From: Paramecium tetraurelia
Taxonomy: Eukaryota; Ciliophora; Oligohymenophorea; Peniculida; Parameciidae
Length of the DNA stretch: 64,000 nt
Reading direction: 5' to 3'
Assembly: GCF_000165425.1 (NCBI RefSeq)
Contig: NW_001799444.1
Location: forward strand, 186,001 to 250,000
Both the position numbers and the translations under genes were made by a program. Under the pieces are notes generated by a model, which saw only the letters and a program-made list of their open reading frames with translations, was not told the DNA's origin and made no database searches. This document shows positions 43,080 to 46,401 of this stretch, piece by piece; within the stretch, counting starts at the first letter, position 1; each line of letters opens with the position of its first letter.

Positions 43080-43931
43080 ATGGGAAATTAATGCAAGGGA
43101 TAGTATTGTGATAATGAATATCGAGAGGAAGTGTCACATACTCCATTGGACATATTCAATAAGATTGTAAAAATATAAGCAATCATACGGGGATTCCTGT
43201 CAAGAAGATAAAAGCTTATATTGAAAAATAATAAATAATTATTAATTGAGGAAAGGAGGATCTTAAAAAAGTTTGGATTTCATAAATTGGAACACATATT
43301 AACCTGCAGGATTCTGAGGAAGAAAAACATTAAGATTTTAGTTTAGGATACCTAGGCATATGTTGGTGAAACTAATAGTTAAAATTAACCACATGGAATA
43401 GGAAGAATAGTGTACTCAAATAATAGTTATAAAGAAGGAGAATTTCAAAATGGAGAATTACGTAAAGGAATCTATTATTTCAATGATGTTATATTGCAAG
43501 GGTAATTTCAAAATAATTTATTACATGGCAGAGGCAGAACAAAGTTAAAAGATGGAACCATTTATGAAGGTGGATTTGAAAGAGGAATCAGAAGTGGATA
43601 TGGCAAATTAACAGACACCAATGGCAATATTTTCGAAGGTCAGTTTAAAAATGGATTATTAAATGGAGATGGAGAATTCGTTGGAAAAGATGGTAGATAT
43701 TATAATGGAGAATGGTTAAATGGCAAATATCATGGAAGAGGAGAATTACTGTTTCCTGATGGTTAAAAGTATGTTGGAGAATTTGAGAATCACAGAAGAC
43801 ATGGCTTTGGTCAACAAATTACCTAACATGGTTAATATATAGGAACTTGGAAAAATGGGAAATAGTGTGGAGAAGGCTAATTGCTCTTTAATGGTTAACA
43901 GATAAAATGTATTAATGGATGTTATAAGTGA
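43080..43931 (+). CDS. IQ-motif and MORN-repeat protein, probably myristoylated
   Basis: 283 residues in a single exon. The start MGNQCKGQYC has Gly2 and nearby Cys, a likely N-myristoylation and palmitoylation signal as in MORN protein A. An IQ motif (IQAIIRGFLSRRQKLILK), which binds calmodulin or related EF-hand proteins, is followed by about seven MORN repeats (YEGGFERGIRSGYGKLTDTN, YYNGEWLNGKYHGRGELL, YVGEFENHRRHGFGQQ). The protein ends after the last repeat. IQ plus MORN suggests a Ca2+-regulated membrane or cortical scaffold. The ATG is 23 nt from the ATG of the divergent membrane-protein gene. Confidence 0.9.
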
Positions 43932-44074: not shown

Positions 44075-44139
44075 CATTGGATCTCTTCAGAAAATAAATT
44101 TTTGTTATTTAAACTTAGTTTCTTCATTCATGGTCAATG
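44075..44139 (-). promoter_or_regulatory. Candidate SECIS element of the selenoprotein W gene
   Basis: Read on the minus strand, 38 nt past the stop codon. Basal helix CATTG/CAATG; 5' core ATGA and 3' core GA, able to form the non-Watson-Crick quartet; helix AGAAA/TTTCT, a C-T mismatch, then TAAGTTT/AAATTTA (one G-U pair); apical loop AAATAACAA beginning with the unpaired adenines. This matches the eukaryotic SECIS plan in core, helix length (about 13) and loop. It should recruit SBP2 and the Sec-specific elongation factor so that the upstream UGA is read as selenocysteine. Folding was done by eye. Confidence 0.85.
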
Positions 44140-44176
44140 TACCAACTCATTATATTATATCAATTTGTAAGAGACT

Positions 44177-44524
44177 TCAAGCCTCAACATAATTCTTCAA
44201 TTTATTTAATATTGGCTGGCATGTTTTCTCATTAAAGATGCCATCGCCATTCTTTTTTGAATGAACTACTGATTTGTTACCTCCTTTAGTAACTTCTATT
44301 TCAAAATAACCAGAAACCTAATTATTATTTTAATGTTTTACATTTGGAGTTTGTTCACCTGTTACCTTGGCATTAGGATAGATAATTGATAAACATTCGA
44401 CAAAGAAATTGTAGAACTAGCCATATCCTCATCCACTGCAATAGACAATATGAATTGAAAATTCTGCGTCTTTCTTTGTACTCATTTATTTAACTGATTC
44501 AGGAACTGTAGGTTTAGAGCCCAT
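44177..44524 (-). CDS. SELENOW: Selenoprotein W (UGA-encoded selenocysteine)
   Basis: 115 residues, a single exon. A thioredoxin-like Rdx-family redox protein. The active-site motif reads Y-C-S-G-U-G-Y, where U is an in-frame TGA at 44429-44431 (codon 32). This is exactly where SelW proteins carry CxxU. Downstream sequence continues in the same frame with SelW features: VSGYFEIEVTKGG and SVVHSKKNGDGIFNE, like the family's TGFFEV and HSKK-GDG blocks, to a TGA at 44177-44179. Treating the first TGA as a stop would leave a meaningless 31-residue peptide, and no intron removes it. A SECIS candidate lies just downstream. TGA is the only stop in this genome, so termination and Sec insertion must be told apart by context. 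Confidence 0.93.
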
Positions 44525-44849: not shown

Positions 44850-45835
44850 AAATAGGAATTATTATCATACTAATTATTACCAATCAAAAAAATTTATCTT
44901 GAATATAGAGATGAATTTAATTGAAGAATTTCATAAGAATTAACAGAATATCAAAAATACTTAACAAAGAATAAAATGCACAAATATTTAGATAATTAAG
45001 TGGAAGACTTGAATAAGATTAACATACTGGTTTAGATGATATGTTAAGAATTAATCATATAAATGAAAATCGTAAATGGATGATTAAATTCAAAGGAAAA
45101 AATCAAAATTTATGTTTACATTAACATTATTTTCAAAGCAGCTTAATAAACTTTTTAGTACGTTAATTGTCTAAATGAGTACAATTCAACAACCGAATAT
45201 ATCTCTATAAATTGATACTACATCATCTGATTTGTAGAATTTAGAATTTTTTAAGAAAATCTTTTTTGTTTTACTAAAATAGTTGGATCCATAATTAAGT
45301 AGAGTATAAAATTAATAAACAGCTCCTTACATAATGTCAGTAGAGTAATCTTGGATCCTTATGTTTTTTAAGCAGCCACATACATAAATATATATATCAT
45401 GGTAATAACATAGGCTCCAAATAAATATTAGTGATGAGAAGTAATGGAAATGAATTCGAAATGAAATAATCTATAACCAAAGGAAATTGAGCACTTTATG
45501 TATAAGATCCGTATGATAACTACCATGAATTAAAGGAAATCAAAAGATTAAATAATCAACCATTATTAAGATTATTAAAAATACAATTGTATATATATGC
45601 TTAGTAAATTCTTTTTTAATAATTCATTAGTTAGCTAAAATTATTGACTAATAAGCATACTCAAGTTGAAAAGATTGAAGTGACCAACACATCTAGAGGA
45701 TGGTAGATTGGAAATTGAATGGTTTGTTTTATAAGGTAGATCAAAAGTGAATTACATTAAATGGTTGTAGAGGCACTAACGATTGAGTTTTCAGATACTA
45801 ATGAATGTACAATTAAAACTCACATCCTTAAATGA
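44850..45835 (+). pseudogene. Decayed frame, unknown family
   Basis: Protein-like sequence continues for about 1 kb but changes frame at least twice and meets in-frame TGA at 44922, 45488 and 45716. Readable pieces are RISQELTEYQKYLTKNK, VEQSWILMFFKQPHTQIYIY, VMRSNGNEFEMKQSITKGN, LYVQDPYDNYHELKEIKRLN and EKIEVTNTSRGWQIGN. The pattern (QDPYD..HEL) faintly recalls PAP/25A-associated nucleotidyltransferases, but this is weak. The decay fits an inactivated gene; a badly understood exon structure is the alternative. The segment 44525-44849 in front has nothing recognisable. Confidence 0.4.
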
Positions 45836-45873
45836 ATGATATTATTTGTTTTATACTAAAATCTAATTTAATT

Positions 45874-46401
45874 ATGTTTTAGGGCAAACCCTCTAAGATC
45901 TTAACCCTTCTACTTATACATCAAAATAACTAGATTTTGTTAGCCATGAAAAAGAGAGGGTTTGGAATGGGCAAATACAATGGATTTGGAGGTAAAGTGG
46001 AAAAGAATGGAGAATCAATTTTTTAAGCAGCAATAAGGGAAACTTAAGAGGAAGGTTGTATTACTCCTACAGATGCATAGTTTATTGGGTATATCAAGAT
46101 GGATTATGACTGTGAAAAAGAAACACTCAAAGTACATATCTTCAAGGCCACTCAATTTGATGGAGAAGTTAAAGAGACCGAAGAAATGAAACCACAATGG
46201 TTCGATGTTGCAAAAATACCCTACAATTAAATGTGGATTGATGATTAATATTGGTTTCCATATATGCTTGAGAACAAATGTTTTTCTGGCTATTTGCAAT
46301 TTGAAGGACATGAGAAATTAATCTTATCAGAATTAAAAGAAGTTACAAATTAAGAGTTAATGAGCATTTCAGAGATGGAATCTGAAATAAGATTGTAATG
46401 A
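45874..46401 (+). CDS. Nudix hydrolase, MTH1/NUDT1-like
   Basis: 175 residues, no intron. The start MFQGKPSKILTLLLIHQNNQ leads into the MTH1 signature LLAMKKRGFGMGKYNGFGGK and the Nudix box GGKVEKNGESIFQAAIRETQ followed by EEGCI. Nudix enzymes hydrolyse nucleoside diphosphates linked to X; MTH1 cleans oxidised purine dNTPs such as 8-oxo-dGTP. WFDVAKIPYNQMW and the Trp/Phe-rich segment after it match the MTH1 substrate pocket (MWxDD..WFP). Two details differ from the consensus: one extra residue before the first Glu, and the final box reads EEGC instead of EExG. The metal-binding Glu residues are all present. The substrate is inferred from family resemblance. Confidence 0.9.

Follow-up and report, generated by a model that had tools for sequence, protein, structure and literature searches.

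A predicted selenoprotein W gene of Paramecium tetraurelia in which UGA would be read both as selenocysteine and as stop

Selenocysteine (Sec) decoding in a ciliate with UGA as its only stop codon was reported in 2008 for Tetrahymena thermophila, in which a tRNA-Sec and SECIS-bearing genes were described (PMC2612030). The available part of that report gives six putative selenoproteins, comprising two glutathione peroxidases, three thioredoxin reductases, and one SPS2. The original prediction of a selenoprotein W (SelW) gene in the DNA studied here overstated its novelty, as Sec decoding under a UGA-only stop was already on record. SECIS elements in ciliate genes include cases in PMC7409322. 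The accessible portion of that paper has P. tetraurelia among its species and states that no Sec-tRNA was found in the tested ciliates with the exception of Tetrahymena species and Ichthyophthirius. Ciliate predictions were adjusted by hand in PMC4561486, according to the part of its text at hand. Among the open-access matches listed, in the portions available, no description of a Paramecium selenoprotein was found; an earlier description is possible.

The window referred to throughout is the whole stretch of 64,000 nucleotides that was analyzed (C182:186001-250000). The genome to which it belongs totals 69.07 Mb, divided over 231 contigs, and was also searched. The window has a GC content of about 27%, and UAA and UAG occur inside those of its frames that match known families. 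The predicted SelW coding region, including the stop, is located on the minus strand at 44524..44177 and begins with the ATG at 44524. It is composed of exon 1 (44524..44342) and exon 2 (44317..44177), and the spliced protein is 107 aa in length. The candidate Sec-UGA is codon 32 (TGA, 44431..44429, minus strand) and sits in the sequence CSG-TGA-GYG, a CxxU motif, with YCSGUGY at residues 28-34. The terminator UGA (TGA) is at 44179..44177 on the same strand. Both the minus-strand CSG-TGA-GY at codon 32 and the second TGA as terminator are present as the original prediction had them. Two neighbors were recognized. A MORN-repeat/IQ protein (43080..43928, plus strand) is convergent, with about 150 nt between its end and the SECIS of SelW, and a NUDIX-domain protein (45805..46398, plus strand, 41.2 bits) is divergent and upstream of SelW. 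A second SelW gene, SelW2 (L013), likewise has a MORN-like frame immediately upstream.

For the family searches, the TGA was given to the programs as C. The unspliced frame scores 32.8 bits against Pfam Rdx (cut-off 22.6) and 40 bits against NCBIfam TIGR02174 (SelT/SelW/SelH, cut-off 34.2). It also matches the solved selenoprotein W 2npb (residues 23-99, E 4.8e-5), and these three matches uphold the SelW identity first proposed. The closest protein found, P0001, comes from Paramecium pentaurelia and carries the UniRef name ‘Selenoprotein W’; the match points to a Paramecium as the source, probably one of the aurelia species. A duplicate in the same genome was identified at C203:204312-204654 by a search with the spliced protein. 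It aligns in two pieces that are 79 and 87% identical, keeps the TGA, and has the identical end, NYVEA-stop. As judged from sequence, the window gene very probably makes selenoprotein W, with UGA codon 32 read as Sec and the second UGA as stop.

SelW had been described as lying in one frame. The family assignment holds and the continuity does not, since an intron of 24 nt (GTA..TAG, 44341..44318, minus strand) had been missed and translated as VKHQNNNQ. The length of the intron is a multiple of three (3n), and it contains no UGA. It is positioned in the middle of the TP-VSGYFE block of the family. Its removal raises the Rdx score from 32.8 to 36.2 bits and the TIGR02174 score from 40 to 46.9 bits, so that the spliced protein is over both curated cut-offs. 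The VKHQNNNQ segment is absent from P0001. At the identical offset of 183, the C203 duplicate is interrupted by an intron of 22 nt whose sequence differs. Over 95% of the introns in Paramecium measure 20-34 nt, and 3n introns without a stop are depleted in Paramecium (PMC11334263, in the part available); the window SelW intron is of this disfavored class. In a metagenome protein of 79 aa, P0002, the SelW region is first translated in the wrong frame and comes into frame at VSGYFEVEV, which is what a non-3n intron at the matching place in a relative would produce.

An orthologue with the TGA spliced out had been named in advance as evidence against Sec, and P0001 is a database model of this kind. 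It lacks the UGA segment, and the stretch that it skips is longer than 30 nt. In the window, a 30-nt GT..TAG stretch spans the UGA in frame and has the length of a Paramecium intron. If it were an intron, the UGA would be spliced out and no Sec would be made. Removal of these 30 nt, however, deletes the CxxU redox motif and lowers the scores from 36.2 to 16.9 bits (Rdx) and from 46.9 to 25.6 bits (TIGR02174), which are below the cut-offs. P0001 is itself below them, with 17.9 (22.6) and 24.3 (34.2) bits, and appears to be a gene-finder artefact. The 30-nt stretch begins with GTC, not with the GTA given as canonical for the genus in the available text of PMC11334263. Such splicing would need the acceptor TAG, whose counterpart in the C203 duplicate is TCA; the frame and TGA are kept there. 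The SelT and thioredoxin reductase genes described below also have TGA at their own Sec sites. Splicing of the UGA is very improbable, and codon 32 is taken here as a translated Sec codon.

The window gene and the C203 duplicate differ, over the 75 codons after the TGA, by 29.8 synonymous changes in 46.7 sites and 11.2 nonsynonymous changes in 178.3 sites. This gives a dN/dS of 0.046 at a dS of about 1.4, with a Fisher p of about 2e-16 on rounded counts. The 31 codons before the TGA have a dN/dS of 0.057, calculated from few changes (7 and 2). Evolution is alike on the two sides of the UGA, as in a single protein. The sequence that follows the UGA is under strong protein-level constraint and would therefore be translated. 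In a more divergent pair, formed by SelW2 (L013, on C195) and the SelW gene on C42 (L079), synonymous sites are saturated, with a pS of 0.82 and a pN of 0.27. The same values bear on a dead or terminating gene, in which the UGA would be a true stop and the downstream similarity a relic. Nothing beyond the UGA codon itself speaks for such a gene, and the dN/dS of 0.046 past the UGA at this dS speaks against it, which leaves it extremely improbable.

Eukaryotic SECIS elements have an ATGA/GA core, a helix II, and an apical run of A. The candidate SECIS of the window gene, which is type-I-like, is at 44129..44084 on the minus strand and has the sequence GAATGA-AGAAACTAAGTTT-AAATAACAA-AAATTTATTTTCT-GAAGA. 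The ATGA is at 44127..44124, helix II and the apical loop are at 44123..44089, and the 3’ GA is at 44088..44087. Helix II is composed of two 13-nt arms with 12 standard pairs and one mismatch, and the A-rich apical loop is AAATAACAA. The SECIS-like hairpin had been placed 38 nt past the stop; the hairpin was recovered, but its quartet lies at 49 nt.

A SECIS descriptor, written after the candidates had been seen, was run on 638 tiles of 200 nt from both strands of the window. Any match was present in 9 of the 638 tiles, and an equally good one in 3, the window SECIS included. A leave-one-out covariance model, R2, was built from the SECIS of SelW2, SelT1, and SelT2 and one Tetrahymena SECIS from the available part of PMC2612030, with the window gene excluded. 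The window SECIS scores 29.7 bits under R2 (E 0.007 over 93,634 bases) and is first in the window, with a runner-up of 21.2 bits, for a model of only four sequences, three of which were chosen by eye and two of those N-padded in the loop. Only R2 was counted as evidence; another model, R1, contained the window gene itself. MAFFT, given unpadded SECIS, misaligned the arms in A1 and A2, and these two alignments were dropped; A3 and A4 are N-padded in some loops. The hairpin of the C203 duplicate scores 24.8 bits under R2, and the outer-helix changes between the two copies keep or improve pairing, as judged by eye on the alignment. A hairpin without any SECIS score had been listed as a point against Sec decoding; R2 supplies a score, though Rfam SECIS_1 has no match at the locus or genome-wide. 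The Rfam scan of the locus gave a single chance match (SpF22_sRNA, E 1). The fold energy of the window hairpin is ordinary, with a z of −1.15 and 24 of 200 shuffles as good.

The genome is predicted from sequence to hold at least eleven Sec genes, which can be sorted into five SelW, two SelT, and four thioredoxin reductases. For finds that rely on the SECIS, this number is a minimum. All five SelW genes found have TGA at the CxxU position (the window gene, C203, C195:250363, C42, and C195:273515). The two SelT genes, on C224 and C6, read YCTS-TGA-SYK. Mammalian thioredoxin reductases end in GCUG. The thioredoxin reductase type on C200, C14, and C24 ends in KEGC-TGA-G-TGA after an inferred GTA..AG intron, and the type on C56 ends in EKHGC-TGA-A-TGA. 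A SECIS-type hairpin is placed 25-126 nt past the stop in all eleven genes. Eight of them are outside R2, and six of these eight exceed the best background of 21.2 bits (the window gene, L060, L061, L067, L076, and L080), L067 barely so with 21.7 bits. L063 (20.3 bits) and L079 (18.3 bits) are under this mark, and their SECIS calls rest mainly on position; L079 tops the background of 13.7 bits in its own small search.

The Pfam Rdx search of the genome gave 10 matches, three of which have TGA at CxxU (L009, L011, and L013). In the frames inspected, the remaining seven lack a TGA at the equivalent position. This search missed the window gene, C203, C42, and C195:273515, which were found by protein search, so family searches are lower bounds. 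One of the seven Rdx matches without TGA, a SelT-like frame (L018, C11:167732-167821), has CNRT instead of CxxU and is possibly a Sec-less relative. Pyr_redox_dim gave 15 match rows, four of which end in the double-UGA motif. Six glutathione peroxidase matches cover the active site (L026, L030, L031, L032, L033, and L034), and a TGA is present there in none of the six. Cys occupies the site in four (NVACSCGLT or NVACSCRLT), and two have neither Cys nor Sec (NVAIDSPEL). No Sep15/SelM was found in the genome, and no relative was found in viral contigs.

SelW2 (L013, C195:250363-250668) has no match with E <= 0.001 in a word-based search of 5.8 billion proteins. Two candidates shared words with it, and neither passed. 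This gene appears to have been overlooked by gene finders. The original prediction had held that gene finders miss or truncate such genes, and it is borne out by SelW2, which has no database match, and by the P. pentaurelia model P0001, which appears mis-spliced. Automated gene models thus hide Sec genes.

A tRNA-Sec is located at C88:80276-80362. It scores 64.3 bits (cut-off 47), is called SeC by ARAGORN, and has the anticodon tca (UCA). It is the only one of the 16 matches listed that is over the cut-off, and seven of the others were checked and are tRNA-Ser(tga) by ARAGORN. This tRNA-Sec conflicts with the Sec-tRNA result in the accessible part of PMC7409322, provided that a Paramecium genome was among those tested there. 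The fourth domain of eEFSec is present at two loci (68.4 and 67.6 bits, cut-off 27) and has no match in 14 prokaryote controls. Absence of tRNA-Sec or eEFSec from the genome had been put forward as an argument against Sec, and both are present. SepSecS matches with 362.2 bits. SelD, the selenophosphate synthetase, is found in two exons, whose scores of 104.9 and 89.1 bits both fall short of the cut-off of 125 for the whole protein. Among NCBIfam families, both pieces match SelD models best, and the selD family also gives sub-cut-off matches in 14 of 14 control genomes. The selenophosphate synthetase found here (L020, C162:410118-410537) has Cys, in KGCGCK, at the position where SPS2 has Sec. 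A PSTK-like kinase on C138 has TIGR03574 as its best NCBIfam match, with 59.8 bits and far below the cut-off of 290.5, and KTI12 as its best Pfam match. SBP2, the third factor to be looked for beside tRNA-Sec and eEFSec, was not recognized among the 25 of 30 L7Ae matches inspected, which are presumably ribosomal and snoRNP L7Ae proteins.

This machinery also bears on which amino acid would be placed at codon 32. A rival reading is that the SECIS directs some other amino acid, chiefly Cys, into this codon. In mammals, the Sec pathway can insert Cys when selenium is low. For Euplotes crassus, the available part of PMC4695839 states that UGA serves for the insertion of Sec as well as Cys. In the present genome, however, tRNA-Sec, SepSecS, SelD, and eEFSec all occur, and a general reading of UGA as Cys does not fit with UGA terminating frames here. 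Insertion of Cys or another residue is very improbable, and Sec remains the amino acid proposed for codon 32.

Sec insertion would probably follow the standard eukaryotic route. The SECIS in the 3’ UTR would recruit an SBP2-type protein, eEFSec, and the Sec-tRNA, and at codon 32 the recruited complex would outcompete eRF1, which is specific for UGA. The UGA at the end of the frame would stay a stop, perhaps because it is too near the SECIS. The distance from the stop UGA to the SECIS quartet is 25-49 nt in all seven SelW and SelT genes, and that from the Sec-UGA to the quartet is about 270 nt or more in these genes, with the SelW3 distance computed after removal of an inferred 25-nt intron. 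A disputed minimum of 51-111 nt from Sec-UGA to SECIS is quoted in the available part of PMC4967479. That Sec or stop is decided by SECIS distance together with a one-shot (non-processive) rule, with no other stop codon available, is a tentative and somewhat doubtful proposal. The base after the UGA fails to separate the two roles, as G or T follows the Sec-UGA and A or G follows the stop-UGA.

The four thioredoxin reductases have their UGAs 6 nt apart, both 57-132 nt from the SECIS, and distance therefore cannot decide there. Three of them contain a strong hairpin (L060 from 1914, L061 from 1917, and L063 from 1917 of the reverse complement) with energies of −15.1 to −22.3 kcal/mol and z values of −4.3 to −6.7. 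It starts 0-3 nt past the stop and 6-9 nt past the Sec-UGA, and changes between the copies keep pairing, as judged by eye. Sec redefinition elements are known from animals, and the place of this hairpin recalls them; one UGA of the pair may be under its influence. The double-UGA thioredoxin reductases, under one SECIS, are a natural test of one codon meaning both Sec and stop.

Compared with the selenoprotein W family (2npb), the window SelW shares the CxxU motif, the family profile, and the GExTPxVxGYFE and HSKKxGDG blocks, and differs in having about 19 extra residues at the N-terminus. Its tiny 3n intron and the reading of UAA and UAG as Gln are further differences. Condylostoma magnum and Parduczia are ciliates with context-dependent UGA, Sec included, but differ from Paramecium in that their UGA also encodes Trp and no stop codon is dedicated, according to the available part of PMC4967479. 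Tetrahymena, as far as the available part of its report describes it, has in common with Paramecium a UGA that is both sole stop and Sec codon, a tRNA-Sec, and SECIS elements in the 3’ UTR. Against the Tetrahymena set in that text, the predicted Paramecium set has five SelW, two SelT, and four thioredoxin reductases, with the selenophosphate synthetase in a Cys form and no Sec in the six glutathione peroxidase matches over the active site, and the two sets overlap in thioredoxin reductase only. The present genes would extend Sec decoding of the Tetrahymena type to Paramecium, with a predicted selenoproteome of at least 11 genes and the greater part of the machinery for Sec.
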